From Symbiodinium natans (taxonomy: Eukaryota; Sar; Dinophyceae; Suessiales; Symbiodiniaceae): a DNA stretch of 64,000 nucleotides. The stretch covers positions 248,001 to 312,000 of the forward strand of contig CAJNDS010002374.1 of the NCBI GenBank assembly GCA_905221605.1, read 5' to 3'. Each line of letters begins with the position of its first letter. Within the stretch, counting starts at the first letter, position 1. The position numbers and the translations under genes were made by a program. This document shows positions 38,526 to 60,573 of the stretch, piece after piece. Under the pieces are notes generated by a model. That model saw only the letters and a list, made by a program, of their open reading frames with translations, did not search any database and was not told the DNA's origin.

Positions 38526-38919
38526 AAAAAATTGGTAAAAGGCTGGTTCTGAGGTGTTGCTGGGCTGGGGCTGGGGTGTTGGTTCTGAGACCTTGCCCTA
38601 CCCTATATAGCCACCTCATCCGTTCTCTTACATGTCCCCCTGCTTCGTTTTCATCATCATCGTCGCCTTATCCGTTATCATTGTTTTGTCCCGCTCTTTC
38701 ATTCCTTCCTTCCTCCCATCATCAACATCGTCACCTCATCCGTTTCTCATCTCAATAAAAGTTTAAGTATCTATAAATTCATTTTTTTCATTTCTCAACA
38801 TCGTCCCCTCACTCGTTTTCATCCTTCATCATATCGCCTCAACCGTTTTCTAGGACTAGCCCACCTCACACGCTTTACCAAAGATTTATAATAATTTACT
38901 ATTATAAATTTTTGTTTAT
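38526..38919. repeat. left terminal inverted repeat
   Basis: It matches the reverse complement of 60,180-60,573. The outer 230-250 bp show no difference that I could find; scattered substitutions appear inward. Its inner end holds a hairpin of 9-bp stems (TTTATAATA at 38,885-38,893 and TATTATAAA at 38,900-38,908). The repeated open frame inside both TIRs is a consequence of the duplication and probably not a gene. Confidence 0.93.
38859..38915. repeat. direct repeat of TIR inner end, copy 1
   Basis: About 57 bases starting GCCCACCTCACACGCTTTAC recur at 39,537-39,593. They bracket the gene at 38,916-39,494, and each ends with a TTTATAATA hairpin just 3' of a stop codon. A related, more diverged version lies in the right TIR. 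Confidence 0.8.
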
Positions 38920-39494
38920 TTTGTTTTGATAGTGCTAAATAGTTCTATTGTTTTGAATTTATCGCCCATTTCTTTTTTAAGTGTTTCCATTTTATTATGA
39001 TACTCTATGTTATTGTAGCGTTCAATTGCTTTATCAATATCAATAGTGAAATTGAATTCTTCGTTATCAAGTAATTTTAACCTTTGCAAAATATGCTTTA
39101 ACAATTCTTCATTATGACTATTTTTATCCTTTTCATAAAAGGTGATTATCATTCTATAAAGGACTTCCTGAAATAATGTTTTACGCTTATGATTACATCG
39201 TTTATACGCGAACACTTCTTCTTTTATTTGTGTATCAATTACTTCTTTGAATGTGCCTTCATTATGTATGTTTTCATATAAGTCTTTTAATATTGTTAAT
39301 TGGTTGGGTTCTTTTAAAATGAATTTACATAAGCAGTAATAATCCATTCTTTTGCTGTGATACAAAACTTTATCTGTTCCACTTATATAACTATGACCTG
39401 CCATTGAAATAATACTGTCAATTTCTTTTTTCAGTTTGGGGAATGGGTTATTCTGCGTCAGGGTCTGTATCTCAGTATTGCTTACCTCGCTCAT
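38916..39494 (-). CDS. unknown protein, 192 aa
   Basis: I do not recognise this family. The protein is highly charged, lysine- and glutamate-rich, and mostly helical, with no cysteine cluster, membrane segment or signal peptide. It starts at an ATG 29 bases downstream of the motif AAAACTACTTAAAG, shared exactly with the next gene, and ends in TAA followed by a hairpin. It is the outermost gene on the left side. Its flanking 57-bp direct repeats suggest it could have been gained or moved as a cassette. Confidence 0.75.
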   Translation of the reverse strand: MSEVSNTEIQTLTQNNPFPKLKKEIDSIISMAGHSYISGTDKVLYHSKRMDYYCLCKFILKEPNQLTILKDLYENIHNEGTFKEVIDTQIKEEVFAYKRCNHKRKTLFQEVLYRMIITFYEKDKNSHNEELLKHILQRLKLLDNEEFNFTIDIDKAIERYNNIEYHNKMETLKKEMGDKFKTIELFSTIKTK

Positions 39495-39522
39495 TCTCTC
39501 TTACCATTCTAAGACGTTTTCC

Positions 39523-39536
39523 CTTTAAGTAGTTTT
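39523..39536 (-). promoter_or_regulatory. putative promoter motif AAAACTACTTAAAG
   Basis: Read on the minus strand this 14-mer is identical to the one upstream of the next gene (40,246-40,259), at nearly the same distance from the ATG (28-29 bases). Both are followed by CTTAGAAT.GTAAGA before the start. The promoter role is inferred from position. Confidence 0.55.
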
Positions 39537-39593
39537 GCCCACCTCACACGCTTTACCAAAGATTTATAATAATTTAATATTATAAATATTTGT
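39537..39593. repeat. direct repeat of TIR inner end, copy 2
   Basis: Second copy of the 57-base segment at 38,859-38,915, with a few changes. It contains the hairpin 39,563-39,586 and lies 3' of the gene at 39,601-40,218. Confidence 0.8.
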
Positions 39594-39600
39594 TCAATGT

Positions 39601-40218
39601 TTAATCTTGTTCCCTATCAAATATTTCATTTAAATGTTCTTGCAACTCGTTAAGATTTAAATATCTAATATCTTTTCCAATAAAATTAATGAGAAACTCA
39701 TACATAATGTATTTGAATAAAACTTTATCAGGATATGATTTCTTGTAATAGCTATAATTTAAGATTAATATATTTTCACGGTATGTAATTCTATTCATTA
39801 ACTCTTTATTATGGAGACAATCTGAAACACTATCAAATTTTTGAAAAAACCTTACTCGATAGTTCTTTATAAAAGATATAATTACTTTCTTATATGGATT
39901 ATCACTAAACTCAAACATATTTACCAATTTTCGTCTTTTTGTTTCAACATCATCACCATAAAAATATACATCAAAATTATCTCTTTCTTTTAACATAAAA
40001 AGTTGTTTTTCAAAAGTTGTTAGTTTATCTTTCTCTTCAGGGTAAAAATCATAATTATCTTCTAGGTTCATAAGACGATTGCAACTGCTACAGCAACAAT
40101 GAAACGATTGTATAATATCTGCTATTGGTTCTGGTAATATTTTATTTAAGGTTTCCTTATTCTGTTGTGTCCGCATATACTTGCACTCTTGACACTTGCT
40201 GTAGTCAAAGACAGTCAT
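39601..40218 (-). CDS. unknown cysteine-containing protein, 205 aa
   Basis: No family recognised. Near the N terminus CQECKY (residues 9-12) and CCCSSC (about 42-47) could together bind zinc. The rest is helical, with aromatic-rich segments such as YRENILILNYSYYKK. The ATG follows the AAAACTACTTAAAG motif by 28 bases. The stop is TAA, followed by the TTTATAATA hairpin. It lies between the unknown 192-aa gene and the integrase, all on the same strand. Confidence 0.75.
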   Translation of the reverse strand: MTVFDYSKCQECKYMRTQQNKETLNKILPEPIADIIQSFHCCCSSCNRLMNLEDNYDFYPEEKDKLTTFEKQLFMLKERDNFDVYFYGDDVETKRRKLVNMFEFSDNPYKKVIISFIKNYRVRFFQKFDSVSDCLHNKELMNRITYRENILILNYSYYKKSYPDKVLFKYIMYEFLINFIGKDIRYLNLNELQEHLNEIFDREQD

Positions 40219-40245
40219 ACTTCTTACTATTCTAAGGCTTTTTGT

Positions 40246-40259
40246 CTTTAAGTAGTTTT
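40246..40259 (-). promoter_or_regulatory. putative promoter motif AAAACTACTTAAAG
   Basis: Identical to 39,523-39,536 and placed 28 bases before the ATG of the 205-aa gene. It overlaps the last codons of the upstream integrase gene by two bases. Confidence 0.55.
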
Positions 40260-41193
40260 ATTTATTCACTAATAATAACTCGTGCCTCATATACTTTTTA
40301 CTCAACCCATCAATAACATAATATTTATTCAGTTGTGGGTCTCTATTAACTTCCTTCACTTCATACACTTTCTCGCTCCACTGACTACGGCTTTCTTTCC
40401 TGCTGGTATAATTGCCTTTACCTTTAACAAATACTCTAACATCATCACCAGCTTTGATATTAGGATAGTTTCTTAAATATTTTTCTTTCATTACAGAATT
40501 GGCTTTGACTTCTATGCTATTCTCGTCTTTATGAGCCTCATTAGGAGTGAGCCCCGTAGTCCCATGAACCATTTTACTATTATACTTATTTAAAACGGGT
40601 TTCAACATAATCGTCCAAGACCCCTTATGAATTTGTAATCTGTCACTTATCATTTTCTTTAAGGTTCTAATCATTCTCTCAGCCACATTAGCATGTGTCA
40701 AGGTTACTTTATGAGTTATTCCTTCCCCTTTGAAATAGTCTTGTAACTTTTTTGAATTGAAACTGCCCTCATCGTCACTGTATATTGATTGAGGATGTCC
40801 CATCACTTTAAAGCATTCCATAAAAGCATCATAAACAGGGTCTGTATCTTTATTCTTCAAGACGACTACATGACATTTTTTACTAAAATTATCAATACAA
40901 ACAAAGCCATACAATGGATATTCTTTTTTATATGTGTCAGTATCTTTCATTAAACTAATCATGTTCATCAAATCTACACTATACACAGACCTTGAAAATG
41001 GAGGCGAATAGCTGTTATAATTTTTATAGTTTTTTCTTTGCTTAAGAGACTGTCCCCTCAACCATTCCTTAACTTCGTTTAAAGTTATTACCAGTCCAGC
41101 TTTTCTGGCATCGTCATATAAACTCTTAGCGCTACCAAAACCGCTTTCAATATCATAATATAAATTGCTTAAAACCTGATTTTTCTCAGCCAT
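40258..41193 (-). CDS. retrovirus-like (rve, DDE) integrase
   Basis: This 311-aa protein should insert the element into the host genome by cutting and joining the inverted-repeat ends. The RNase H-like core starts at YSVDLMN (about residue 74, first catalytic Asp), followed by YGFVCIDNFSKKCHVVVLKN. The second Asp is in IYSDDEGSFNS (about 138). The catalytic Glu is in NVAERMIRTLKKMI (about 171). The C terminus has the basic, strand-rich part typical of Polinton integrases (VRVFVKGKGNYTSRK, then SEKVYEV). The triad is complete and the gene is uninterrupted. It may lack a full N-terminal zinc-binding region. Its presence, with TIRs and a 5-bp target duplication, fits Polinton-type transposition. 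Confidence 0.93.
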   Translation of the reverse strand: MAEKNQVLSNLYYDIESGFGSAKSLYDDARKAGLVITLNEVKEWLRGQSLKQRKNYKNYNSYSPPFSRSVYSVDLMNMISLMKDTDTYKKEYPLYGFVCIDNFSKKCHVVVLKNKDTDPVYDAFMECFKVMGHPQSIYSDDEGSFNSKKLQDYFKGEGITHKVTLTHANVAERMIRTLKKMISDRLQIHKGSWTIMLKPVLNKYNSKMVHGTTGLTPNEAHKDENSIEVKANSVMKEKYLRNYPNIKAGDDVRVFVKGKGNYTSRKESRSQWSEKVYEVKEVNRDPQLNKYYVIDGLSKKYMRHELLLVNK

Positions 41194-41195
41194 TA

Positions 41196-41228
41196 ATTAA
41201 TATTATTTATATTTTAAATAATATTAAT
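41196..41228. terminator. AT-rich hairpin, 13-bp stem
   Basis: ATTAATATTATTT (41,196-41,208) pairs perfectly with AAATAATATTAAT (41,216-41,228) across a 7-base loop. It sits between the stop of the 93-aa gene and the ATG of the integrase, both on the minus strand. A 3'-end-forming role is inferred from the repeated placement of such hairpins after stop codons in this element. Confidence 0.55.
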
Positions 41229-41505
41229 TCCATAGCAATACCTTTTTGACTATCTTATCCTGTAGCTCTTTTTGTTTATTCTCTTCATAAATTTCCTGAC
41301 ACCTTGCAGTGTTCTGATGCTTGGCTCTGTTCGTTTTACTGCTAATTATCTTTCCACACCTCTCACACTCATAGCTACAACTGTTTTTCTTATAATAATT
41401 ATTCCAATACCCTTGTTCCTTATATTTGACATACAACCTTTCATTTGTTGCGTTCTTTTTCATCCTATTAAAATCCGGCATTTTGTTTCCTTCATAGCGT
41501 TCCAC
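41224..41505 (-). CDS. small zinc-finger protein, 93 aa
   Basis: The protein contains CERCGKIISSKTNRAKHQNT and ARC, a treble-cysteine/histidine finger closely like the C-terminal finger of the element's GIY-YIG proteins, preceded by a YKEQGYWNNYYKKN-type basic segment as in those proteins. It lacks the GIY-YIG nuclease half, so it may be a remnant of such a gene or a stand-alone DNA-binding protein. It lies directly upstream of the integrase. Confidence 0.65.
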   Translation of the reverse strand: MERYEGNKMPDFNRMKKNATNERLYVKYKEQGYWNNYYKKNSCSYECERCGKIISSKTNRAKHQNTARCQEIYEENKQKELQDKIVKKVLLWN

Positions 41506-41640
41506 ATACAGTCAAACAGGTCATCGTCCATTTGAAGTTTTACTCCATCCATTACAAGCGTTGAGTTCATTATCTTACTTGTAAATGTTAATATTTCTTT
41601 AAGTAGATTTGCGTTTTTAACGCAAAAATCTTTAAAGCAA
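41460..41640 (-). CDS. possible small ORF, about 60 aa
   Basis: The open frame reads like real protein (KEILTFTSKIMNSTLVMDGV) and fills the gap between two genes, but its frame opens inside the end of the 259-aa gene without an early ATG. The first ATG is internal near 41,571. It may be a frame-shifted tail of the neighbouring gene or a short independent gene. Confidence 0.3.
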
Positions 41641-41643
41641 ATA

Positions 41644-42423
41644 TTAACTCCCAACTGAACGAACGCTTCCTCTGGAGCTTCTGCTCCTTATATATTCTAT
41701 TGTTTCTTGTGACCGCCTTGAACTAATAACACTCTGCGGTGGTGTTGCTTCTTCAACATATTCAATTGTTCTATTGCTTTGTATTGAACTTTGAACTGAT
41801 ATTGGCGGGGAAGAATGAATATGTTCGCTTAGTGCATTTTCTTCAATAGGTAATAAAGCGCTTCTATTTGTTGAACTTGAACTTGATGACGAAGACTCAT
41901 AAGATTTTTTAACATTCATAGGTAAGCTGTTATCGCTTTCTTCGCTCTTTTGTTGCTCAAAAGGTGTTTCACTTTCTAAATCATCATCATCTTCAATTTG
42001 CTCTCTCCTATTACGCAGTTCTTCTCGTTCTTCTCTAAACTCATCTTCTCCGAACATAGCATCGTAAATTCGTCTCATCATTGATTTCCCCCTTTCCCTT
42101 TCTGGCTTTTCTTTTTGTGGTTCTTCTTCTTGAGTTGGTTCGCTTTCTGCTTCTTCGCTCTGTGTAGGTTCTTCTTCTCTTCTAATGCTCTCGCTCTTTT
42201 CAGTTGAAGGACGACTGTCAAATAAATCCGTTTGTGTTCCCTTATCTGGATTATTTAATATTATTTCTTTTTTATCATATCTACTTAAATCAAAATCATC
42301 AAAATCAACATCATCTATGAATATTCCTTGTTGTGTTCGTTTCTGCCTTTCTGGTAGTATTTTTAGTCTATGTGTCATTGTCTCTTTTAATATTTCTTCA
42401 TAAGTTGGGCGTCGCGATAGCAT
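41644..42423 (-). CDS. acidic, Ser/Glu-rich unknown protein, 259 aa
   Basis: No family recognised. The N terminus RRPTYEEILKE is shared with the next gene (LRPTYDELIG). The middle is rich in Glu, with a basic helix MRRIYDAMFGEDEFREE, and the C-terminal third has serine runs and SRRSQETIEYIRSRSSRGS. Such low-complexity, charged proteins are often virion-internal or scaffolding proteins, but this is speculation. It is the last gene in a run of minus-strand genes from 44,789. Confidence 0.7.
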   Translation of the reverse strand: MLSRRPTYEEILKETMTHRLKILPERQKRTQQGIFIDDVDFDDFDLSRYDKKEIILNNPDKGTQTDLFDSRPSTEKSESIRREEEPTQSEEAESEPTQEEEPQKEKPERERGKSMMRRIYDAMFGEDEFREEREELRNRREQIEDDDDLESETPFEQQKSEESDNSLPMNVKKSYESSSSSSSSTNRSALLPIEENALSEHIHSSPPISVQSSIQSNRTIEYVEEATPPQSVISSRRSQETIEYIRSRSSRGSVRSVGS

Positions 42424-42443
42424 TATATTATTTATTGATATTT

Positions 42444-43508
42444 TTATACTGGTAAAAATGATTTTGCCAGTGCTGTCGCTCCTGCTTTTGCTAATGTTTC
42501 CACTCCTGCTTTTGCACCAGCTACAAGAATGTCTTTTGTTGCGCTTGATGATGCTGATTGTGAAGGGACTAATTTATCTTCTCCACTACCCTTACCTTTT
42601 CCTTTTTTCATCTGCCCCCATTCTTCCATTCTACTCCTTAGTAGTTGGTCATTAACTTCATTAGCCCACTGCCCAGTCATCATAAGTTTTTCAATAAAGT
42701 TTAATAAATAATCTTTTTTGGTCAGAGTTCTGCCTTTCCCTTTGTTTCTTAACTTGCTTATTTCTTCTTCCTGTTTCTTTTCCAACGTAATACCTCTTAA
42801 GTAAAGTTGGAATAAAATATCGTCCGCTTGTACATCCTTGTTTTTCCATCTTGTTATGTTGTCATTGTAATCTATCGCCTCCTTATGTTTTCTTGATACA
42901 GGTGGGACTTGTGTTTCTTCATCGTCTTCAGTTTCTTCTTCTTCTTCTCCTTCTTCAGCTATTTCCGTTGGTGTCTCTAATGGTGGCATATCATCTTCTT
43001 CATCTGTGGCTATTGAATGGACAGGAACACCAACAGGTAATGATTGACTATGTACTTCATCTAAATCACTTCTTGCTCGTTCTGCTGTTGTTTGACTTGC
43101 TTGTTCTCTTCTTCTCAATCCTTCTTCAAGTTCTGTTCGTATGTTAAATCTTTGTCCGTCTATTACAAAACCTTCTCCTTCTTCGTCAGTGTCCATTTCA
43201 TAAACTTCTGCTGGTGTTGTAAAGCCACTTGACACTAAACCTGTTGATATCCTTGCAGTTATTCCTCTTTGTCTCAATTGAGCTCTTCTTACATCTTCTT
43301 TTGCTCTGTCTTCCTCTTGCTTCTTCAATCCTAAAAAATCAATATTATCTAACTGGCTTCCGAACTGATTATTCCTAAATAAAGTTGCCCTTCTATCAAT
43401 TACGTTTTCAATTGAGGGTCTGTTAGGGTCTCCTTGGCTCTCAATCATTCCTATCAGTTCATCATAGGTCGGTCTAAGTTTTAATTCTGATTTTAATGTT
43501 TTAATCAT
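42444..43508 (-). CDS. unknown protein with hydrophobic C-terminal helix, 354 aa
   Basis: No family recognised. It begins LRPTYDELIGMIESQG, the motif shared with the 259-aa neighbour. The middle is acidic (EEGEEEEETEDDEE, residues about 190-200), then lysine-rich (KLRNKGKGRTLTKKDYL). The last 30 residues form an Ala/Gly-rich hydrophobic helix (AKAGVETLAKAGATALAKS). An amphipathic or membrane-active tail on a charged protein recalls minor capsid or membrane-lytic virion proteins of DJR viruses, but no homology is claimed. The stop is TAA. Confidence 0.7.
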   Translation of the reverse strand: MIKTLKSELKLRPTYDELIGMIESQGDPNRPSIENVIDRRATLFRNNQFGSQLDNIDFLGLKKQEEDRAKEDVRRAQLRQRGITARISTGLVSSGFTTPAEVYEMDTDEEGEGFVIDGQRFNIRTELEEGLRRREQASQTTAERARSDLDEVHSQSLPVGVPVHSIATDEEDDMPPLETPTEIAEEGEEEEETEDDEETQVPPVSRKHKEAIDYNDNITRWKNKDVQADDILFQLYLRGITLEKKQEEEISKLRNKGKGRTLTKKDYLLNFIEKLMMTGQWANEVNDQLLRSRMEEWGQMKKGKGKGSGEDKLVPSQSASSSATKDILVAGAKAGVETLAKAGATALAKSFLPV

Positions 43509-43543
43509 AATATAAAAGAAGTTAGATTTTATTTTATTAAATA

Positions 43544-43876
43544 TTAAAATAAAATTAAAACTAAATTTGCCATTATTTCTTTTAATTCTTTTTGTTTCTT
43601 AAGTAGCTCTTCTTTTGTTCTTACTGGCATCATGGGACGTTCTAACTGTCTGTTAATATCGTCAAGTTGTCCTTGATATATTGATTTCTTTTGATGTTTA
43701 ACCCAGTCATTCCTTAATGCTATGTTTTTACCTCTATTCTCAGCTTCTTCAACTCTTAGTTTCATATCTTCAATTTGTTTTCTCCTACTTGCTACTCCGA
43801 AAGTATCGTCAATGTCATAGTATTGTTGAACCTGTGGCATTCTTTTAAACTCTGGTTTGCTTTTAAACATACTCAT
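43544..43876 (-). CDS. small coiled-coil protein, 110 aa
   Basis: No family recognised. The protein has a short N-terminal region (FKRMPQVQQYYDIDDTFGV) and then charged heptad-like helices (KQIEDMKLRVEEAENRG, LLKKQKELKEIMANLV). The ATG lies just beside the AT-rich hairpin at 43,878-43,909. It is part of a closely spaced minus-strand run and may be a virion or assembly protein. Confidence 0.65.
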   Translation of the reverse strand: MSMFKSKPEFKRMPQVQQYYDIDDTFGVASRRKQIEDMKLRVEEAENRGKNIALRNDWVKHQKKSIYQGQLDDINRQLERPMMPVRTKEELLKKQKELKEIMANLVLILF

Positions 43877-43877
43877 T

Positions 43878-44147: not shown

Positions 44148-44161
44148 TGGTTTTCAATAGG
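44148..44161. repeat. direct repeat flanking the insertion, left copy
   Basis: TGGTTTTCAATAGG here is repeated exactly at 44,464-44,477 on the other side of the GC-rich insertion. Only one copy is needed to make the interrupted gene continuous, so it is a target duplication. Confidence 0.85.
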
Positions 44162-44463
44162 CACCGGCAGGGGATCTCGAACGCCAGCTTCAAAAGTTTC
44201 TGGATGATGCCAGTGGAAGTGCTAAGTGACCATTGCAGAATGTTTGTATAGACTGTCACGTTTGCGAAGCGGCAGGCGTGCCTTGTGCTGGCGCTGTATG
44301 GCTCTCCATGCGTAGCGTTCAGCTGTTAGGTCAGTGGGCCGTAGCCCGCGCTGTAGCGCGAATCACGGCTTCTGGCTGTTCTCTGAGGGGTTTTTTGTTT
44401 GTTAGGCTTGACTCGTCTGACCTTTCCCTCCGCAGAGCGTGTGTGTGTGTGTGTGTGTGTGTG
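44162..44463 (+). mobile_element. SINE-like retroposon, 302 bp, inserted in the viral gene
   Basis: The segment is far richer in GC than the viral DNA around it, has no coding frame, ends in a TG repeat (44,442-44,463), and is flanked by a 14-bp target duplication. A non-coding body of about 300 bp, a simple-repeat tail and a long target duplication are the marks of a SINE moved by host LINE machinery. On the minus strand GTTCGAGATCCC near the edge resembles an RNA polymerase III B box but is not exact. CCGTAGCC (44,339) is only a short match to the dinoflagellate spliced leader. The exact family is unknown. Confidence 0.65.
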
Positions 44464-44477
44464 TGGTTTTCAATAGG
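44464..44477. repeat. direct repeat flanking the insertion, right copy
   Basis: Exact second copy of TGGTTTTCAATAGG (see 44,148-44,161). Confidence 0.85.
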
Positions 44478-44846
44478 TTTAACTGCTACTGTCCTTGTTT
44501 TTGGTTTTGGTTTAATCGGTTTATCCTCTGTTTTACCATTACATTTATGTGAGTATCTTAATGTTTTTAGCGTCATCTCTGCTTGACATCCTTCACATTT
44601 GACCTTTTTATTTTTCATCCTATCTGTTTTGTTTTTAAATTGCTCGTCTTCTTTGGGCTCTTCTTTTGGTGTTTCTTCTGGTGCTTCTGCCTTAACCTCT
44701 TCTGGTTTAGCTTCTTCAACTTTTTCAGGGACTTCTTCATTATTGTTTTTGGGCTCTTCTTCAATAACTGTTTCAGGAGCTTCTGACATATATAATATTC
44801 TATATTTTTTCTATTTTTTAAGTAAATAGAAATAATATAGATAATT

Positions 44847-45392
44847 TTAAGAATTATTGATAGGTTCTTGTTGTTTCATCTGATTTAAATAGTTTTGGTG
44901 CTTTGGTGTTTTTAGGTGTCCTGGCATTGAATTTTTTTTTATCAGACAACCACATTCACAGGTAGTTTGCTCTTTGCGTCTCTCGCTTGATTGTAGCCAT
45001 TTCTCTTTGTTGTTCTGATAATATTGGTGTTTATTTTGCGATTGCCTTTCCTTATTCTCTTCATTCCATTGACTTTTGCTTCTACCTGCTACACATCTAT
45101 TGACACATTCATTTCTTTGAATGTAGTATCCCTCTCTTGCCTCTAATTCTGCCTTATCTTTACAGGGGTATTTCTCTATCTCTTCAATTTTGATATTATC
45201 AACACCAAATTCATCAAACATATCAAAAACAGTCATTTTTATAGTGCGTTTGCCAGAGCACCACATCTTATAAGAATAGCGGTGTTTTGCTATTCTGTTT
45301 GAAAGATTTTCAATTGTAGAACCAATGTAGCATTTGTTGTAGCCTACATCAACAAGTTTATAAATCTTACCCTTCATATACTTATTATCCAT
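44847..45392 (-). CDS. GIY-YIG homing-type endonuclease, 181 aa
   Basis: GIY-YIG enzymes cut one or both DNA strands, often to spread their own gene. The N terminus has GKIYKLVD and CYIGSTIENLSNRIAKHRY, with the catalytic Tyr pair and Arg. The catalytic Glu is probably in the EEIEKYPC/ELEAREGYYI stretch. Then follow VAGRSKSQW, a basic lysine/glutamine helix, and a C-terminal finger CECGCLIKKNSMPGHLKTPKH. It is most similar in layout to the gene at 54,708-55,328. It sits between the SINE-split gene and the penton gene and reads through intact. Confidence 0.9.
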   Translation of the reverse strand: MDNKYMKGKIYKLVDVGYNKCYIGSTIENLSNRIAKHRYSYKMWCSGKRTIKMTVFDMFDEFGVDNIKIEEIEKYPCKDKAELEAREGYYIQRNECVNRCVAGRSKSQWNEENKERQSQNKHQYYQNNKEKWLQSSERRKEQTTCECGCLIKKNSMPGHLKTPKHQNYLNQMKQQEPINNS

Positions 45393-45428
45393 AATATAAT
45401 ATATCCTTTTTCATCTTTATATGTCTTT

Positions 45429-46265
45429 TCACCCTCTGAAAAATGTTATTGTGAAACTTACATCTACATTGTTTAAATCTATTACTTGATTTAAATGGTC
45501 TGTCAATCTCCAATTCGTTCTACGAAGCAATTTGTTAGAACAGTCTATATAATCTTCGGCGCTTAATTCAGTGTCGTTAATAATACCTAAATAGGGAACA
45601 TTAACGGGAACTTTTTTAACTATGCTTGAATTACCTGCCACTGTTAATTGGTTGTAGTTGCTAATTTCATTACAATGTATGTATATGTTTTTTGCTGGTG
45701 TTAAATCTACAAAATTTGTTGTGTAAGGTGCTACATTCGTATAAGCATCAGCTGCTGGTGTTGTGTTACCTATAACTCTATTCATAGAGTTGAGACCGTT
45801 GATATTGACAGGGTCACTAAAACTACCAGCTAATGGTGCTATTTCACCATCGGTTAGAACAACAAAAATAACAGTGGACTAATTAGATGAGAAAGTATAT
45901 TTGTTGGTTGAGGTGTTATAATGTATTGAATAAGTATTCGGACGGTCGTTAGTATTTACTAAAAGGTTAAGTGCTATTTGAATTGTTTGTGCTAAATCAA
46001 CTGATGTATAATTGCCTTCTGGAATTGTTATTTTCCGATAAGTTATACCTGCTATGACACCTGGGGGTATAACCTGATGCATAAAATATAAATTATTATT
46101 TGTGCTGTTTATTGAGTACCACGAATGAGGAATGCTGACCTCATGTATTTGACATAGCATATTGTCTTCAAGTTGAACTGTTTCAGGTAAATCAATGGTA
46201 AAATTAGATGAAGTGCCACTTACTTTATAATGACTATCAGTATATACCTTTTTGAACTTTAGCAT
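45429..46265 (-). CDS. putative penton/minor capsid protein with in-frame TAG
   Basis: Total open length is about 278 codons, near the usual size of Polinton-like penton proteins, which fold as a single jelly roll and fill the capsid vertices. The first part reads SHYKVSGTSSNFTIDLPETV, LCQIHEVSIPHSWYSIN and FMHQVIPPGVIAGITYRKI, a strand-rich pattern often seen in these proteins. A TAG at 45,879-45,881 stops the frame after codon 128. The same frame then continues without shift to TGA at 45,429 (for example TDGEIAPLAG and ELSAEDYIDCSNKLLRRT). So it is either a nonsense mutant or a recoded codon. The assignment rests on size, style and position and was not checked by homology. Confidence 0.65.
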
Positions 46266-46305: not shown

Positions 46306-46950
46306 ATGCCTAAACATAAAAGAAGAAATGAGAGAATACTATATGAGCCACCGATTACAAGAAGCAAATTACATAATGAAGTTAGGGACGAGTTAGCCGG
46401 AACTGAAACATTCCTCACAGACACACAAGGACTTAAATTAGCATATGAAAATCCTGACGGAATATATCAAAATGGTTCTATTTTATATATAGCAGGAACT
46501 AAAGACCCCATTGATTTTTGGGACGATGTAAAGTTGCCATTCTATCAGACAAGGAACACCAAACGATACAAAGATGTTGATAAATTCATTAAAGACGGTG
46601 CTATTGAAATTGATGGTAAGAAGCATTACGGTATTTCGGACGTTATTTCACATTCATTAGGGTCGGCGATAAGCGCCCAAATAAATAATGATTATGGTAA
46701 TATCTTTCGTTCAAGGTCTTATGGTTCGCCTTTTGTTTCAAACCAGCGCCCAGAAGATGTAAAAACAAACCTTCGTTTGAGAAAAGCAGGAGACCCTGTG
46801 TCAATGTTTGATAGAGGAAGCATTACAATAAATAAAGGAACATTAGACCCTTTACAAAATCATTCATATCAAGACATAGGCAATGTCAGTAATAAAGCAG
46901 GGAATTTACCTATAACACGAGAAGAATTTATGGAACAATTTGAAACATAA
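46306..46950 (+). CDS. lipase-like alpha/beta-hydrolase, 214 aa
   Basis: The protein contains SILYIAGTKDPIDFWDDVKL (about residues 64-83) and GISDVISHSLGSAISAQI (about 108-125). The pentapeptide S-H-S-L-G resembles the nucleophile elbow G-H-S-L-G of class 3 lipases, with Ser replacing the first Gly, and the preceding GTxDxxD...D pattern is also seen in that family. A DAYG/Asp-His remainder of the triad is not obvious. A viral lipase could act on host membranes at entry or exit. It is divergently placed from the penton gene and is the first in a plus-strand run leading to the capsid gene. Confidence 0.6.
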   Translation: MPKHKRRNERILYEPPITRSKLHNEVRDELAGTETFLTDTQGLKLAYENPDGIYQNGSILYIAGTKDPIDFWDDVKLPFYQTRNTKRYKDVDKFIKDGAIEIDGKKHYGISDVISHSLGSAISAQINNDYGNIFRSRSYGSPFVSNQRPEDVKTNLRLRKAGDPVSMFDRGSITINKGTLDPLQNHSYQDIGNVSNKAGNLPITREEFMEQFET

Positions 46951-46986
46951 TTAAAGAAAAGACAGTATAATAAAGTATTATACAGT

Positions 46987-47739
46987 ATGAAATATCAAGA
47001 TGGTAAAATTTATAAGATATTAAACAGTGAAACCGATGATGTTTATGTTGGTTCAACAACACAAAAACTGTCTAAACGAATGACAAACCATAGAACAAAA
47101 CTTAAATCTGGTAGAATATTAAAATTATATGAAAAAATGCGTGAAATAGGAGAGGAAAAATTTTATATTGAACTTATTGAAGAATACCCTTGCCAAAACT
47201 CGGAACAATTGCTGAAGCGGGAGGCTGAATGGATGAGAAAAATTGGAACACTTAATGAAAATGTCGCAGGAAGAACAAAGCAAGATTATAACGACGAGAA
47301 CCGAGAAAATAGAAATCATAAGGCAAAGGAGTATTATCAAGAAAACAAAGAACAAATACTACAACGACAAAGAGAACATTATAAAGAACATCAAGAACGG
47401 ATTAATGAGCGACATAGAAAATACAACGAAGAACATAAGGAAGAAATTAAAGCGTATCGTGACGCAAGAAAAGAAGAGAAAACAGAATACAACAAGTCAT
47501 ACTACAAAGGGAATAAGGAACAATCATACCAGAAGCATAAAGAGTGGGTGGCACAGAACAAGGTTAAGATAGTTTGCGAAATTTGTAATCGTGAATACCC
47601 TAAATATGACAAAGCCCACCATATACAAAGAAAGTATCATTTAGATGCTTTAAATAATCTAAATAATAGTAATAATGTATCATTACAAAGCGACAACATA
47701 CGAACAAATGGAGAAGAAACCAAAGGAGAAGAAGTTTAA
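46987..47739 (+). CDS. GIY-YIG homing-type endonuclease, 250 aa
   Basis: The N-terminal catalytic part is GKIYKILNSETDDVYVGSTT then KLSKRMTNHRTKL, with the Tyr-Tyr pair and Arg. The Glu is in EEYPCQNSEQLLKREAEWM. The middle is a long basic helix with repeated NKEQ, EEHKEE and YYKGNKEQ elements. The C-terminal finger is CEICNREYPKYDKAHHIQRK then YHLDAL. It is inserted between the lipase-like gene and the major capsid gene, the kind of spot homing genes choose. Confidence 0.9.
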   Translation: MKYQDGKIYKILNSETDDVYVGSTTQKLSKRMTNHRTKLKSGRILKLYEKMREIGEEKFYIELIEEYPCQNSEQLLKREAEWMRKIGTLNENVAGRTKQDYNDENRENRNHKAKEYYQENKEQILQRQREHYKEHQERINERHRKYNEEHKEEIKAYRDARKEEKTEYNKSYYKGNKEQSYQKHKEWVAQNKVKIVCEICNREYPKYDKAHHIQRKYHLDALNNLNNSNNVSLQSDNIRTNGEETKGEEV

Positions 47740-51999: not shown

Positions 52000-52032
52000 T
52001 TAATAATATTATGATTATATAATATTATTAAT
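51999..52032. terminator. bidirectional AT-rich hairpin, 13-bp stem
   Basis: ATTAATAATATTA (51,999-52,011) pairs with TAATATTATTAAT (52,020-52,032). It fills the space between two convergent genes and overlaps both stop codons (TGA ending at 51,999 and TAA at 52,028-52,030). A two-way 3'-end signal is the simplest reading. Confidence 0.6.
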
Positions 52033-52627
52033 CTTCTCGTTCTAACGACTTTAAATATTCTTGGTGTTTGTTGCTTCGCATATGTTCTTGCTTATGACAG
52101 TTTGTATATCTACCACCACATTCACACTCAAATTTCAACCCTTTTTGTATTTTCAGGTAGTCCTTGTTTATTTCACGATATGTTCTACTTATTTCTTGTC
52201 TGTGCTCCTTCTTATTTTCGCGATATGCTTTGTCATATTCTTTCTTTTCTTCTTTATGAGTTTCCCTAAACTCTCTGCCTACTTTATCTGCTTCCTCTTT
52301 GCTTCTGAAGGCACGTACCATATTTAAATCTGCTTGTAATTGTTCAGTAATTTCTCGTTCCCTTCTTCTGGCTTCTAATGAATTAGCGACGCCTTCAGTG
52401 CTTATTAATAACATATCCCAATTATCCCATCCTCCATTTTCTCTAATTCGTTTATATAGTTCAAGGTTGTGATGCTTCAAGTTAGGATTATTACAGGCTT
52501 GTTTGTGTGAATGCTTCCTTTTTGTAAAATCTGTTGTATGACCAACATAAGTATGACTGATGGATAAATCTTTACATACGATTTTGTAAAAATGAGTTTT
52601 GCCATAATCTATTGCTTTCCGTGGCAT
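52028..52627 (-). CDS. GIY-YIG homing-type endonuclease, 199 aa
   Basis: The catalytic part differs from the other three: HFYKIVCKDLSISHTYVGHT, then TDFTKRKHSHKQAC and WDNWDMLLIS. The Glu-bearing region has ANSLEARRREREITEQLQAD. A basic helix with KEEKKEYDKAYRENKKEHRQ follows, then a finger CECGGRYTNCHKQEHMRSNK. It lies between the coiled-coil gene and the packaging ATPase and reads intact. Confidence 0.88.
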   Translation of the reverse strand: MPRKAIDYGKTHFYKIVCKDLSISHTYVGHTTDFTKRKHSHKQACNNPNLKHHNLELYKRIRENGGWDNWDMLLISTEGVANSLEARRREREITEQLQADLNMVRAFRSKEEADKVGREFRETHKEEKKEYDKAYRENKKEHRQEISRTYREINKDYLKIQKGLKFECECGGRYTNCHKQEHMRSNKHQEYLKSLERED

Positions 52628-52659: not shown

Positions 52660-53463
52660 TTAAATGTCTTCATCATCAATCACTAATTTAGCATCAAACC
52701 TTTTGTAAAACATATCATTCACATCTGTCTTCATCAAATTTACATATAAAAAACTGTATGGTTCTTCTGTGGCAAGGTTATATATTTCAAGCAATAACCG
52801 TTTTGCTTCTGTTAAGTTTTTAGTATCTGCTACGGTTGATTTTTTAATTAACACGGCGCTTAACTCTTCAACCATTGTCTCTATTTCTTTGTAGTTTCTT
52901 AACCTGAAGAAGAATAACTGACGACTATTAACACGAATGATAGGACTTAACGCGTTAAACTTTTGCGTGGCAGTTATTATATTGCAACCTTTATGTCTCC
53001 CTCTCACATACAGCTGATTTAGAAGAGGTGAGTTTCTTGAGAAAGCCTTACTGTCGGCAAAGTCATCAACAATAATGAGTATTGAAAATAGTTTCCTGTG
53101 GTTGTTCTTCTTCTGATATTCTATTTCTTTGTGCTGTTGCTTTATGACCTTCTCTAATTCTTCTGGTATGTATTCATCAAAGAGACACTTCTCTTTTTCC
53201 AAATCAACCTTCAGCTCGTCTTGAATGTATTTTTTAACAGGTAACCAATTACTATCAACCGAGATTGAAGGAGACCAGATATATATCCTTTCAAAGACGT
53301 CTCTATAAATATCTAGTATCATTGACTGTAATAATATTCCTTTTCCAGAACCGCTAGGACCTGTTATTATTTGTGAAAAAGGTAATCTAGGAGCTACTTC
53401 GTATTTAGACTGTTTGAAGTCGTATTCCTTGACATTGATAGGTTTAACTATGGGAGTAATCAT
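52660..53463 (-). CDS. A32-like genome-packaging ATPase
   Basis: This FtsK/HerA-type motor should pump the viral DNA into the preformed capsid. The Walker A motif is ITGPSGSGKGILLQSM (about residues 34-49). The Walker B motif is SILIIVDDFAD (about 127-137), followed by SPLLNQLYVRGRHKGCNI and TATQKFNALSPIIRVNSRQ, the sensor region typical of A32-like ATPases. The length of 267 aa is usual for Polintons and virophages. The gene is intact with a TAA stop, and is divergent from the small genes that start at 53,504. Confidence 0.92.
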   Translation of the reverse strand: MITPIVKPINVKEYDFKQSKYEVAPRLPFSQIITGPSGSGKGILLQSMILDIYRDVFERIYIWSPSISVDSNWLPVKKYIQDELKVDLEKEKCLFDEYIPEELEKVIKQQHKEIEYQKKNNHRKLFSILIIVDDFADSKAFSRNSPLLNQLYVRGRHKGCNIITATQKFNALSPIIRVNSRQLFFFRLRNYKEIETMVEELSAVLIKKSTVADTKNLTEAKRLLLEIYNLATEEPYSFLYVNLMKTDVNDMFYKRFDAKLVIDDEDI

Positions 53464-54027: not shown

Positions 54028-54049
54028 TATTTAAGTAGTATTTTATATA

Positions 54050-54682: not shown

Positions 54683-54709
54683 ATCTTATAAATATATTTT
54701 ATAAGGTTT
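54681..54709. terminator. bidirectional AT-rich hairpin, 12-bp stem
   Basis: AAATCTTATAAA (54,681-54,692) pairs with TTTATAAGGTTT (54,698-54,709) with one T-G wobble. It spans the gap between convergent stop codons, as at 51,999-52,032. Confidence 0.55.
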
Positions 54710-55328
54710 AACTTGAGTTATTGATAAAGTCTTGATGCTTTTTAGTTCTTTCATGTCTTCTGATGTCCCATTGTCTTACAGAAGCACCACAAATACAATC
54801 AATAAATTTATCTTTATTTCTTTGGTAGTAATTTTTATGCTTTTGGAAAATCTCTTCTCTATGTTCTTGGTGATACTCTTGTTTCTGTTGCTTACAATGT
54901 TCCTTGTTGTCTTCCTTAAACTTTTTTGCTCTTTCCTTACATAGTTCCATATGTTCTTTATACCACTTGTTCTTATAATCTTGTAGATGTTCTTTGTTGT
55001 CTTCAACCCATTTCTCTCGCGGTCGTCCTGCTACTTGTTTATTTATACAATCAATAGATTGTATATGTTGTCCTTCTCTTTTTAATAATTCTGACTTGTT
55101 TTCACACCTATAATCTTCAATAAGTTCAATTTTGCAGTTTTCAACTCCGTATTCATCAAAAAGTAGAAATGACCTCGTGCATTCTGTTTTGCCTTTTAAG
55201 TATTGAGTATATTTCCATCTATGTCGTGCCATTCGTTGAGTTAAACTTTCACAGGTTGAACCAATGTAGCATTTATGATATCCTATATCAGTAATCTTAT
55301 ACACCTTTCCATTATGGTATTTATTCAT
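54708..55328 (-). CDS. GIY-YIG homing-type endonuclease, 206 aa
   Basis: The catalytic domain has GKVYKITDIGYHKCYIGSTC and SLTQRMARHRWKY, with the Glu region IELIEDYRCENKSELLKRE. VAGRPREKW, a long basic helix with EDNKEH and KNYYQRNKDK repeats, and the finger CICGASVRQWDIRRHERTKK follow. It is paralogous to 44,847-45,392 (both share KCYIGST and FDEYGVEN/FDEFGVDN). It is placed next to the polymerase gene. The ATG follows an ATTTAAAG element. Confidence 0.9.
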   Translation of the reverse strand: MNKYHNGKVYKITDIGYHKCYIGSTCESLTQRMARHRWKYTQYLKGKTECTRSFLLFDEYGVENCKIELIEDYRCENKSELLKREGQHIQSIDCINKQVAGRPREKWVEDNKEHLQDYKNKWYKEHMELCKERAKKFKEDNKEHCKQQKQEYHQEHREEIFQKHKNYYQRNKDKFIDCICGASVRQWDIRRHERTKKHQDFINNSS

Positions 55329-55369
55329 ATCCTTATTAATCCTAAGTCATCTTTTCTTTAAATCAGAAA

Positions 55370-58300
55370 TCAGGTAATGACCATTGGGAGACTGTTTATA
55401 TTATCTAAATAATAACGCTTATTACAGTATGATGATAGCGCTTGTTTTACTTGATTTATAGAATATATTTGATGATTTTTGCTTCTTATGCTGTTGAAAC
55501 TAACAGTATCACAGCTGTTATGTTCAAGAGTATCTGTATATTTATTGTAATTAAGTTCTTTCTTTACTTTGTGTTTTACTATTCCTTTACTCTTCTTTTC
55601 CTCTTTAACCTCGTTATGAACCTTAAAGGTATATGATTTAGGTTTTAAACCTATAAAATGAGTAAGAATTTTTCCATCCACCTCGTCCTTAAATTTTCCT
55701 AGCACCTTCTTATTTGTAGCATCATAACATTTATGGTCTTTATCGTATCCGCTAAAATCCATGTGTTTATTTATTTGCTTAAAATCATCGTATATGTCTT
55801 CTGTTTTAGTGTGTATAACAAAACTATCAGTATCAGTATATATCAGTCTTACATCATCATTGTACTTCTTCTTTAACACATCATAATAAAAACTGTACAT
55901 ATGTAACTTGGATAAATCTAAAATGCTCATTCCTACATATATAGGCTTATTTAGTTTAACTGTTTCTTTTAACTTCTCCACTCCTACCAGATTTTCATTA
56001 ATGTTCTCTTACATTTGCCATCGTTTTACCATACACCGCGTTGTTCATTAATTTATACATATCCTTTTCAAAGTCGCTGTTCGCCTTCTTTCTTTTTTCA
56101 GTGTTAAAATCAATCCACGGTTTTAACCATTCTTTTTGTTTAAACTGGACTACTCTATTAATCTTCTTTATCTTAAGACCCTGCTTAAGATAATACTGTA
56201 ATATTTTAATATGTAATACATAATTCTCTTTGTGATTGACATTTAATATGAGTTTCTTTGTTTTTTCGTCTTTAGGCGACTGATTAAAATGATAGGCTTT
56301 GTAAATATCTTTTTGAGTATCACTTAACATATCAGCCGTTACACTCATAATTTCAGGAGCTAGTGGATAATCAACATGCTTGTCGTGTAACTCTTTTGGA
56401 TATTCTAAATCAACGTCTAAAATGTATCCAGTTCCTAAGTCGCTCCATGTTCGTATATGGTCTTCTGTAAAGTTCCCTTCAACAAATTTAATATCTTTAT
56501 ATGGTAGTTTTTGACACATCGCTAAGCCATAAAGATTATTAGCATCAAGATAGTTTATATATGAAGATGGTTTATTTTCATCATAGCCTTCTCCCATATA
56601 TTTATTATTTGCTTCTGCCATTCTGTGGCTACACTGGCACATTCCTCCGCGCAATCCTCTCTCTATCGTTTTATAAAGGTCTTCGTTATATATTAAGTCC
56701 AAACATATACCAGTTTTTAATAACATAGCGTCCCAAGCGAAATTAGGTAATGTATAATAATGTGCTGGGTCTAGCTCATAATCTATTAAACATTGATTTC
56801 TAAAATTTTCAAAAACATCTGTTAATAATAGCACATCAGTCTTCAAATAAAGGTCATGATACTCACCGAGGTTTTTTATGTTAAAGTGTTCCCATATATG
56901 CTTTGCTCTTTCATAGTCTTTATCGTCTATGTGTTCTTCACCTAATCTACTGTAAAACTCTTTTTTATCTGGTAGTTCTGTTTCATTGAATTTCTTAAAC
57001 TCATTCATATAGTCATACGGATATACACCCTTATCGGTTAATAAATCTAAATCATAATCATCTTTAACATACTCACTTATTTTACCGTATTTAAAATGCT
57101 GTGTCCAATTATCACGCTTCTCATTATTTTCATATTTAGTTAATTTAACCAGTTTATCTAATGATGAAGATAAAAAACTAAAGCTGTCTTTAAACTCTAA
57201 CTGTTTAAGACAAAAGGTTATAAACTTCTCGCTGTTTTGTGCTATTACGCTTACCTCGTCTTTTTTAGTGTTTAATTTATCAAGATGAGATATAACTAAA
57301 TGAGCATCATAGTTTTTAAGATTATGAAAAAATATAGGTATTTTAAAGTATTTGAAACAATAGTCTAAATTACATTTATGATGTGCTGGTCCTCTGTATT
57401 TTCCTGTAAAATGGCAATGGTCTCGCACCTTTGCTTTAGCTTTTACATTTGGTTGAAAACAACCGTTGCAAATAAAGCATTTCTTTGCTTTTCTGTGTTG
57501 CTCTTCCTCTTCATCTGTTAATTTCTCCATGTCTTTTGGATTATCCATTACCTCAAATATTTCTTCTCTTATCTCGTTCATCGTTTTACAAAATACGTCC
57601 ATACAATCTTCACCTCTATATAAATATGGTTTAGCTTCTCCTGTTATTGAATTAACAACGTTCAACATAAAACCTGAGGGAATATGATTTTGATATGTCC
57701 CCTTTATTCCTTCATTCGTTAAGGTTGTTAAACATTCAAAATCTCCGTAAATAACATAAGGACATTTTAATTTCTTGTAGTGCTTTTGGAAGCTCATTTT
57801 TTCTTTCTCTTCTGGCATCTCTATCGCTTGAACCTCATTAGCCATACAACCTTTTAAAAAATGAGCTTGTAATAAGTTCTCTTTACTAAAACCTTTTTGA
57901 CAGTACTTACAATAAAAAAGCTGTCTATTGGTCTTGTTTGTTTGACTTCCTAAAAGTCTTGAGTAGTCTTTAATTAAAACATAATGGTTTTTATTATCTT
58001 CATCAAGTCTTAATAAATTGATATGACACGTTGGGTTTGTTATTTTCGTTACTTTATCAACTCTTATTTTATCTACATCTGTATCAATTGTATAAACATT
58101 TACATCTGTATCAATTGTATAAACATTAACTGATATAGTTTCACCATTCACCTCTTCAAACTTATCTATATCTTCATTACACGCTGGGAACTCTACACCG
58201 TCCCATTTTATGAAATTATCATTTTCTAAATACTTGTTATAATGATATAATCGTTCAGGATGGTCTTTTTTATATATTTCATGAAACTTACACCATACAC

Positions 58301-59072
58301 AATATTTAAAACATAGATTATCATAGTTTTTTATATTAATACATGCCTTTTTTAATGCCACCCAGCGCGGTAATTCAATGTATTGTCCTGCTCTTGTTGG
58401 GTCATACTTGTCATAATGAATAGTGATTTTATTGACTTTCTTTATGCTTAAACCTGACTTTTGTAGTTGTTTATTTTCTAGAATAATTTGAATATCATTT
58501 CCAGCATTATTAACTGCTTTGTTTAAGTCCTCTTCATTTAGTATGTTATATCTTCTACTCCTAATTGTTGTTGGATATTCTTCCGTTGTCTCATCTTCTT
58601 CTATAACCTGCCTTAAAACAAATTCAACATCAATCAGTAATTTCATGCTCTTGTGTTTGTTCAAAAACTCTCTTAATCGTGATTTTTGAGAATATATATG
58701 TCCTAAACCTTTGTAGCCTTCTTTCTCAATATCAATTATAGAATAGGTGTTGGCATATCGTTTTAAAGCACTAAAATTATCAGTTCTTTTTCCAAATGTT
58801 GATATAGCATATCGTTTTAAATTCTTTCTAACTCTAACTCCTTTACTAGCCTTATCTAAAATCTCAAACCGTTGAAAAGCTGGTGCTTTACTAATTTTGT
58901 TTAATTGTTTTTTCAGTTTCGCTGTGAAGGGCTTTTCTTTATCATACTTATATTGTGTCCCATCAATTACAATCTGTTTTAACTCTTTTCCTTTTTTTGT
59001 CTTTTTTATTTCACCTAATCGGCTACTTAATGTGTATCGCATTGCGGTTTTTAGGGCGTCCTGGTCTGCCAT
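55370..59072 (-). CDS. protein-primed family B DNA polymerase, frame-broken
   Basis: The total of about 1,230 codons fits Polinton PolB, which copies the linear genome from a terminal protein. The exonuclease motifs are YGDFECLT (Exo I, about residue 440), FFHNLKNYDAHLV (Exo II) and YLKTDVLLLTDVF (Exo III). The polymerase motifs are NYLDANNLYGLAM (A), MNNAVYGKTMANV (B) and LIYTDTDSFVIH (C). Two zinc motifs, CKYCQKGF and CFICNGCF followed by VRDHCHFTGKYRG, are usual in this family. The frame stops at 55,998 just after motif B and resumes at 55,981 in another frame, so motif C is out of frame; one missing base in an A-rich stretch would explain it. An ACTTAAAGGG element lies about 21 bases before the ATG. 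The copy is probably inactive unless the break is an assembly error or programmed shift. Confidence 0.93.
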
Positions 59073-59092
59073 TATGGTATAAGGTGGCTTCC

Positions 59093-59100
59093 CTTTAAGT
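59093..59100 (-). promoter_or_regulatory. putative promoter motif ACTTAAAG
   Basis: It shares its core with the 14-mers at 39,523 and 40,246 and lies about 21 bases before the polymerase ATG, followed by CCACCTTATACCATA. This suggests the polymerase and the left-end genes belong to one early class. Confidence 0.45.
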
Positions 59101-59350
59101 GCTTTTGGTGTTGCCGGGTGTTGCTGGGTGTTGCGCTGGTTCTGGGGCTGGGCTGCTGGGCTTGGGTGGGTTGGTGGTCGGCGGTTGTGGCGACAGCCAG
59201 TAAATAGAATATACTAGAACCCTAAAAACCTCCAAAAAGGGGAATTGTATATTTCTTAAGAAAACGAAAACAAAAGAAAGCATAATGCCCCTTTTTCAAA
59301 ACATAGTCCTAAACCGAGAGGACTAAACCACAACAACCCTTAACGCCTGA
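59100..59350. other. gap between the polymerase and the repeat array
   Basis: It begins with a short GC-rich stretch (GGTGTTGCCGGGTGTTGCTG, related to the TIR sequence GGTGTTGCTGGGCTGGGGCT), then returns to AT-rich non-coding DNA. I see no gene. Confidence 0.5.
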
Positions 59351-59354
59351 ACCT

Positions 59355-59645
59355 CTATGCGTTTTTATGCATACCTCTATGCGTTTTTACGCATACCCCT
59401 ATGCGTTTTTATGCATACCCCTATGCTCTATGCGTTTTTATGCATACACCTATGCGTTTTTACGCATACACCTATGCGTTTTTACGCATACACCTATGCG
59501 TTTTTACGCATACACCTATGCGTTTTTATGCATACCCCTATGCGTTTTTATGCATACCCGTATGCGTTTTTATGCATACCCCTATGCGTTTTTATGCATA
59601 CACCTATGCATTTTTATGCATACACCTATGCGTTTTTATGCATAT
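59355..59645. repeat. array of 13 palindromic 22-bp direct repeats
   Basis: Each unit holds an imperfect palindrome of the type TATGCGTTTTTACGCATA followed by CMCC. One irregular joint of six extra bases lies near 59,422-59,428. In about half of the units the pair closing the loop is G-C or G-T, and the unit at 59,604-59,621 has TATGCA/TGCATA, an A-T pair that keeps the stem. All three frames are open because the unit has no stop, so the long MHTPMRFYAY translation is probably not a protein. Iterated hairpins near the polymerase suggest a replication or partition site. Confidence 0.85.
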
Positions 59646-59692
59646 TGATAAAGTCCCTGAAACCATATAAAGAAATAGTCCCACACTACTAT

Positions 59693-60034
59693 ATGGAGAA
59701 CTTTGAAGATGAAAACTATAAATTATGTTCAGGTTGTAGGAAATAGAAAGCAATAGACAACTACCAACCAAATAAGCAACTTTGTAATGTCTGTCTGGGA
59801 AAAAAGGCACAATATAGGGAAACTAACAGGGACAAATTAAAGCAGGAGGCAAAGGATTATTATGATAAAAACCGACAAGAAATACTTGAAAAGAAAAAGG
59901 AAAAGATTGAATGTGAGTATTGTAGATGTCTAATATCAAAGGCAAAATTAACACAACATTATAAATCAAAAAAGCATATTAAGAATAAAAAAGAATTGGC
60001 TAATTTCATTATAAGTGAATTAGAAGATGGATAA
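59693..60034 (+). pseudogene. zinc-finger protein, 113 aa, with in-frame TAG
   Basis: The start is MENFEDENYKLCSGCRK, then TAG at 59,744-59,746, after which the same frame runs on to TAA at 60,032-60,034. The full frame has CSGC and CNVC, a basic helix (QEAKDYYDKNRQEILEKKK) and a C-terminal finger CEYCRCLISKAKLTQHYKSK like those at the ends of the GIY-YIG proteins. It lacks the nuclease domain. The two-CxxC start resembles small zinc-ribbon proteins. The TAG may be a nonsense mutation or a recoded codon. Confidence 0.6.
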
Positions 60035-60179
60035 ATAACCATCATATTATGAAACTTGTATGATTGTTATAAAATACTTATAAGGAAATTTGGTAAGCCC
60101 TCCCCGCTTCGCTCCCACCCTTAAGCCTATAAGGCAAAGTGTCGTAACCAATTTTTTTTTATTTTAACAATGATAAAGT

Positions 60180-60573
60180 CTAAACAAATATTTATAATAT
60201 TAATTTATTATAAATCTTTGGTAAAGTCTTTGAGGGGGATACGTCCCAGAAAACGGGTAAGGCGATATGACGAAGGATGAAAACGGATTAGGGGACGATG
60301 TTGAGAAACGAAAAAAATGAATTTATAGATACTTAAATTTTTATTGGGATGAGAAACGGATGAGGTGACGATGTTGATGATGGGAGGAAGGAAGGAATGA
60401 AAGAGCGGGACAAAACAATGATAACGGATAAGGCGACGATGATGATGAAAACGAAGCAGGGGGACATGTAAGAGAACGGATGAGGTGGCTATATAGGGTA
60501 GGGCAAGGTCTCAGAACCAACACCCCAGCCCCAGCCCAGCAACACCTCAGAACCAGCCTTTTACCAATTTTTT
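60180..60573. repeat. right terminal inverted repeat
   Basis: Reverse complement of 38,526-38,919, ending AACCAGCC TTTTACCAATTTTTT at 60,573. It contains the TTTATAATA/TATTATAAA hairpin at 60,191-60,214. Inner differences from the left copy (for example around 60,225-60,260) show some divergence, while the outer part is the same. Confidence 0.92.

Follow-up and report, generated by a model that had tools for sequence, protein, structure and literature searches.

A Polinton-like virus at a Symbiodinium natans polyketide synthase locus and the C/G-tract insertion sites of copies sharing its integrase clade

We analysed a 64,000-nucleotide stretch of the Symbiodinium natans genome (assembly GCA_905221605.1, contig CAJNDS010002374.1, positions 248,001 to 312,000 of the forward strand; hereafter the window), in which a Polinton-like virus (PLV) lies beside exons of a polyketide synthase (PKS) gene. 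The element is an integrated, endogenous PLV, a kind of virus known in dinoflagellates, and it is one of dozens of relatives in the host genome. Our results make it probable that it was inserted by an rve-type integrase that strongly prefers oligo-C/oligo-G targets and duplicates 5 bp of host DNA. As a virus it adds one more member to that kind; what is new is the targeting rule.

The borders of the element, 38526..60573, are exact. The G+C fraction was about 0.32 inside the element (39 to 60 kb) and about 0.57 in the surrounding DNA, the terminal inverted repeats (TIRs) aligned with 375 of 394 columns identical, and CCCCT was present on both sides. Genes for a protein with a capsid fold, a packaging ATPase, an rve integrase and a B-family polymerase were found inside. 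PLVs typically have TIRs of hundreds of bp, and many of them carry a protein-primed polymerase of the B family and an rve integrase that leaves duplications of 5-6 bp. These results bear out the initial annotation, which had described both terminal repeats, a 5-bp target duplication and a Polinton-like virus. It had also called the element complete. This holds for the two ends and the target duplication, but the copy is damaged: the minor-capsid gene and the polymerase gene are both divided between two open reading frames (ORFs), and a retroposon lies in one ORF. Such a copy is probably unable to make particles unaided. All 19 TIR mismatches were found inward of the first 226 columns, which all matched (P = 5e-8 under random placement). 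Because of this non-random placement, the inner differences are probably older than the insertion, and TIR identity was rejected as an insertion clock. A young insertion would agree with the identity of the outer part.

In the first set of copies, the flanking host 5-mer contained at least four C or at least four G at 27 of 28 sites. The same was true of 30 of 31 distinct ends in a second subfamily (29 of 30 without one end, C1276). The background of such C/G-rich 5-mers was 5.4% in the host DNA of the window and 6.8% in 29 kb of other host DNA. The 5-mers at the two ends were identical in all 13 two-ended sites of the first set and in 6 of 8 in the second subfamily; one of these six has a duplicated flank. 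Of 29 first-set ends, 24 adjoined a tract of 8 bases or more, compared with 0.7% of 5000 random host positions in the window. For 26 of the 28 first-set sites, an integrase of the window clade (at least 62% identity) was located no more than 25 kb away, and none was scored near the other two (C2500 and C2074). These results demonstrate a C/G preference in two sets of copies sharing one integrase clade. The length of the target duplication was set at 5 bp because four of the repeats are not homopolymeric (CCCCT three times, AGGGG once). Both C and G orientations occur and the repeats are direct rather than inverted, which places the tract in the host DNA and outside the TIR.

The searches covered the window's own assembly (759 Mb). 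First-set ends were sought by TIR similarity and by the terminal 17-mer with one mismatch allowed, which gave 32 matches against 3 for a reversed control. More first-set ends came from the DNA upstream of 20 capsid copies, where they were identified by a terminal motif or by likeness to other ends; 13 of these stretches gave an end (L019 included), and none was identified in L009-L012, L018, L025 and L028. Second-subfamily ends were sought with the TIR of that subfamily. The searches were blind to the flank except for C1276, which was spotted by a C/G-run expression, is hence a biased find, and was counted in the second subfamily and not in the first set. Four rows were dropped as the TIR match stopped short of the end (C497, C317, C1004 and C2263); C317 and C1004 adjoin G runs and C497 does not. 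Seven 17-mer rows without TIR continuation or a scored major capsid protein (MCP) gene nearby were also dropped (C403, C1723:479521, C1742, C1790:758020, C1843, C1867 and C2157). Most of these belong to one other repeat, and 2 of 7 had a C/G-rich 5-mer. Duplicate flanks (C1213bR, C369 and C635b) and C2457 (partial matches) were removed as well. C1725 was counted as two of the 28 first-set sites; counted once, the result is 26 of 27. At this site (L036, L037) two TIR ends lie 22 kb apart in the same orientation with one capsid gene between them, which may reflect an inversion or a fault of assembly.

Assembly is difficult across long runs of C or G, and viral contigs might have been joined to host DNA at homopolymers. 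The three duplicate second-subfamily flanks and the two C1725 ends in one orientation are in line with this, but the joints coincide with the TIR end and show 5-bp duplications that match, not all of them homopolymeric, and in the window copy two host DH pieces flank the element in profile order. An assembly artefact is thus a very improbable source of the pattern.

The host gene encodes a type I PKS. As the initial annotation had proposed, DH-domain pieces were found on both sides of the element, in the order of the Pfam PS-DH profile, each match being weak singly. The left piece (LIDSSFQAL at 38397) covers profile positions 67-103 (E-value 0.057), and the right piece (GETVLYFDSVHLQEV at 61295) covers positions 133-165 of 166 (E-value 0.15). 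A DH N-terminal piece at 35.2 kb (E-value 0.0094) was below the cut-off, and two pieces tried between the left and right pieces gave no PS-DH match. The left piece extends to about the C-tract beside the element, the right motif starts about 720 bp past the element, and the polypyrimidine tract with TTCCAG at 60581-60610 fits an intron; no clear donor site was identified here. It is likely from this arrangement that the element sits in an intron of the PKS gene. The PKS query matched a 1354-aa EukProt protein, 'Skav234552', at 58% ('Skav' we take to be Symbiodinium/Fugacium kawagutii), a Durusdinium trenchii protein at 56%, and further proteins with partial-length matches of up to 79%. Close to the element on its left side, the non-coding host DNA contains a 112-bp tandem array of about 10 copies (36448-37778).

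The same pattern could arise if insertion were random and copies survived only in non-coding C/G tracts. In the PKS span, C5/G5 words had a frequency of 0.22% in exon-aligned DNA and 0.82% in the remainder (3.7-fold lower in the former), and none of the three runs of at least 8 in this span overlapped an exon-aligned stretch; both results would fit such survivorship. These figures also weakly suggest exon avoidance by C/G targeting. C/G-rich 5-mers, however, make up 5-7% of host DNA, so that harmless sites elsewhere abound; they are nearly as common in exon-aligned DNA; and a young burst with 24 identical TIR ends follows the C/G rule too. We consider survivorship a highly unlikely explanation.

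The integrase itself may choose the target. Its D74, D140 and E172 residues were conserved in a 37-sequence alignment (36 of 120 listed homologues used), and the nearest Foldseek match to its predicted model was the PFV intasome (1.4e-13), with retroviral intasomes in all 50 matches shown. The sequence preference of retroviral integrases is weak, whereas the one seen at the PLV sites is nearly absolute, and G:C homopolymers are highly A-philic. In retroviruses, strand transfer puts the target DNA into the A-form and the genomic sites are A-philic (PMC9410886). The likeness to the PLV integrase lies in a preference of strand transfer for A-philic target DNA and in a similar predicted fold. G:C homopolymer steps would readily take the A-form needed for strand transfer, and the PLV integrase clade may rely on A-form propensity to an extreme degree. 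Long C/G runs in introns, such as that of the PKS gene, would then be the usual landing places. The full proposal is that this clade evolved near-absolute G:C-homopolymer targeting by DNA shape and not by a host tether, with intron and intergenic C/G runs as landing sites for dozens to hundreds of copies. We put it forward tentatively, at slightly less than an even chance; it was lowered because exon avoidance holds for C5/G5 words and hardly for C/G-rich 5-mers.

Several findings weigh against an integrase that selects C/G tracts. Two sites missed the rule, C757 in the first set (CCCAA) and C2162 in the second subfamily (TTGGG), and two second-subfamily sites showed a one-base difference between their ends. 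By the measure of at least four of five bases, exon-aligned PKS DNA (4.7%) hardly differed from other PKS DNA (5.1%). The structure models of capsid and integrase were both of modest quality. A third subfamily, with an integrase of about 35-42% identity, gave a mixed picture in the three elements whose ends could be corrected: an ATATC duplication borders C1723 in ordinary DNA outside any tract, a reading that shifts the aligned border by a few bases common to both ends, while C1811 and C1768 lack an exact duplication and have G-rich left flanks. Finally, a tether could select the site, either a host protein on G-rich or quadruplex-forming DNA or the element's neighbouring zinc-finger ORF, which adjoins the integrase gene in all 13 of the fetched upstream stretches that hold a member of the window's integrase clade. 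Against a tether, short isolated targets such as CCCCT or CCCCA were used (C2516, C527 and C459), and the rule is exact to the base at the joint, which is a better fit to local recognition by the integrase. We regard tethering as rather unlikely, though a serious alternative. In six other stretches neither the zinc-finger ORF nor the integrase was seen, and in five of these the 10-kb stretch stops before the element end; L025 has a divergent integrase without the zinc-finger ORF.

The divergent-integrase subfamily was also considered as a clean negative control. It was rejected for this use, as the first apparent ends lay inside longer TIRs. From 11 first ends only three elements could be corrected, and L103-L106 gave no end.

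Endogenous dinoflagellate PLVs with 'Dino group' MCPs were published by Bellas et al. 2023 (PMC10120064). The window element resembles them in size (15-30 kb), TIRs, MCP, pPolB or rve integrase, GC contrast and high copy number in dinoflagellates (2,535 MCPs in Polarella), a likeness to the published description. No target-site rule was seen in that paper, whose main text does not contain the term 'target site'. The Oxyrrhis marina PLV (OmPLV) is also an AT-rich dinoflagellate PLV of about 25 kb with GIY-YIG genes, but unlike the window PLV it is described with a tyrosine recombinase, no target duplication and a helicase-polymerase fusion (PMC12721341). Cryptophyte PLVs share the rve integrase, target site duplications (TSDs) and free-standing GIY-YIG genes, whereas their TSDs are about 4-6 bp, typically 6 for the rve integrase, and no tract rule appears in the accessible text (PMC12220804). 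One low-complexity GAGGG in cryptophyte PLVs with another recombinase was judged spurious there. Mavirus and the EMALEs have TIRs and TSDs of similar size, and EMALE integration was tied to an rve integrase, but sequence-specific integration was not found in that work, with 13 sites in exons and 2 in introns (PMC8547959). The capsid likeness to mavirus is one of fold only, common to double jelly-roll capsids. No account of sequence-selective integration by PLVs or mavirus-like elements came up in the papers searched, among which most subscription papers and all bioRxiv preprints are missing. If confirmed, the rule would provide a natural integrase with an extreme preference for testing the A-form model of strand transfer. 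It might also account in part for the build-up of PLVs in dinoflagellate genomes, and it would offer a simple way to find PLV ends in them.

Of 500 first-look candidates in the capsid search, 89 were scored (34 at >=97%, 47 at 81-84% and 8 at 77-79% identity), and in the integrase search 127 of 425 were. In the second subfamily, 24 TIR ends were identical over 209 nt, which marks a recent burst. Nonsynonymous (dN) and synonymous (dS) divergence was computed for capsid genes in 15 pairs from 6 of 8 fetched copies, two being left out on the start check. The dN was 0.004-0.018, the dS 0.16-0.43 and dN/dS 0.02-0.05, which indicates strong selection on the lineages to keep the capsid functional between insertions. 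Among 20 other copies that have both parts of the minor-capsid gene, the frame is intact in 18; L019 has one stop and L009 a frame break. Both results point to selection for particles. They argue against a Polinton-type transposon without virions that spreads only inside the nucleus, which the identical burst copies in one genome and the broken core genes of the window copy would otherwise fit; we judge this unlikely.

The features of the window are listed in Table 1. A Pfam scan was performed on 22 element ORFs, the two broken genes being counted as two each. The major capsid protein had no meaningful Pfam match. Its structure model (pLDDT 55.7, pTM 0.63) matched the capsids of PBCV-1 (3.9e-14), Sputnik (1.5e-13), PRD1 (7.9e-10) and mavirus (1.4e-9) in Foldseek, in agreement with a predicted double jelly-roll fold. 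The 120 listed of its 473 homologues were all from ENA, and no relatives were found in IMG/VR, the phage collection or GTDB genomes; the packaging ATPase likewise had none in IMG/VR. Against PDB sequences, the capsid profile gave no match and the polymerase a single, insignificant one. No maturation cysteine protease of the Maverick/Polinton core set was recognised among the 22 ORFs by Pfam, which short or diverged genes could escape; the S74 domain is a fibre chaperone and not such a protease. An in-frame stop divides the minor-capsid gene (parts 45879-46265 and 45429-45785), and the polymerase changes frame near 55990 (55998-59072, then 55370-55981). An exact 27-bp duplication was observed in the polymerase gene at 58074-58127. 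No Rfam families or tRNAs were found in the window.

Table 1. Features of the window, with positions counted from its first nucleotide
Feature	Position	Strand	Basis or remark
Host type I PKS exons left of element	20698..38516	+	Profile and homologue matches
Left target duplication CCCCT	38521..38525		Host DNA at left border
Whole integrated PLV	38526..60573		GC shift, TIRs, TSD
Left TIR	38526..38918		393 nt; outer 226 nt identical to right arm
ORF1, no assigned function	38916..39494	-	TTAAAG-type motif upstream
ORF2, no assigned function	39601..40218	-	TTAAAG-type motif upstream; present in some other copies
rve-type integrase	40258..41193	-	PF00665 6.6e-9
Small C2H2-like zinc-finger ORF	41224..41505	-	Match below Pfam cut-off
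Conserved ORF, 259 aa, no assigned function	41644..42423	-	Similarity among copies
Conserved ORF, 354 aa, no assigned function	42444..43508	-	Similarity among copies
Conserved ORF, 110 aa, no assigned function	43544..43876	-	Similarity among copies
Host retroposon inside PLV, GC-rich, 302 bp	44162..44463	+	14-bp duplications 44148-44161 and 44464-44477
ORF broken by retroposon	44331..44789	-	ORF scan
GIY-YIG-type endonuclease gene 1	44847..45392	-	Similarity to other three GIY-YIG ORFs; no Pfam match
Minor capsid (penton) gene	45429..46265	-	DUF5901 0.00087, below cut-off
Conserved ORF, 214 aa	46306..46950	+	Lipase-like by eye only; no significant Pfam match
GIY-YIG-type gene 2	46987..47739	+	Present or absent among close copies
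Major capsid protein	47926..49359	+	Predicted fold; 473 homologues
Fibre-like protein with C-terminal S74 chaperone	49414..51765	+	PF13884 3.2e-10; phrog_1980 4.8e-18
GIY-YIG endonuclease gene 3	52028..52627	-	PF01541 1.1e-5
A32-type packaging ATPase	52660..53463	-	Pox_A32, PF04665 8e-10
GIY-YIG-type gene 4	54708..55328	-	Similarity to other three; no GIY-YIG Pfam match
B-family DNA polymerase, viral/organellar type	55370..59072	-	DNA_pol_B_2, PF03175 3.1e-12 on first part
22-bp tandem repeats	59351..59644	+	Near right end of element
Right TIR	60181..60573		Inverted copy of left arm
Right target duplication CCCCT	60574..60578		Host DNA at right border
C25 tract and TTCCAG acceptor-like site	60581..60610	+	Sequence; host DNA directly right of element
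Host PKS DH C-terminal piece	61217..61384	+	PS-DH profile

Matching sequence recurs across the host genome, which identifies the 302-bp insert as a retroposon of the host that inserted into the virus. Eight near-full matches at 99-100%, the PLV-borne one included, and 13 partial ones, all without the start, were found. The retroposon has a GT-repeat end. Four matches, again including the PLV-borne one, were 100% identical over 279 nt, and it was therefore probably active recently.

Among the four GIY-YIG ORFs, we take gene 1 to be of this type from its motif and its similarity to the other three. The GIY-YIG gene before the capsid gene (46942-47650) is present in L001, L002 and L005 and cleanly absent in L006, L007 and L008, while L003 and L004 carry a distant relative in its place. 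In other copies the GIY genes stand at differing places, as expected of mobile homing-type genes.

A [TA]TAAAG[GAT] motif was found 26-36 nt upstream of the start codon in 7 of 19 genes, with one extra at 17. The carriers were ORF1, ORF2, the four GIY-YIG genes and the polymerase (upstream of 39494, 40218, 45392, 46987, 52627, 55328 and 59072), and no structural gene was among them. In other copies, the motif preceded 9 of 12 GIY genes and 4 of 5 ORF2 genes, compared with 2 of the remaining 117 gene starts (excluding mCPc). From its distribution, the motif is likely to mark an early-promoter class.

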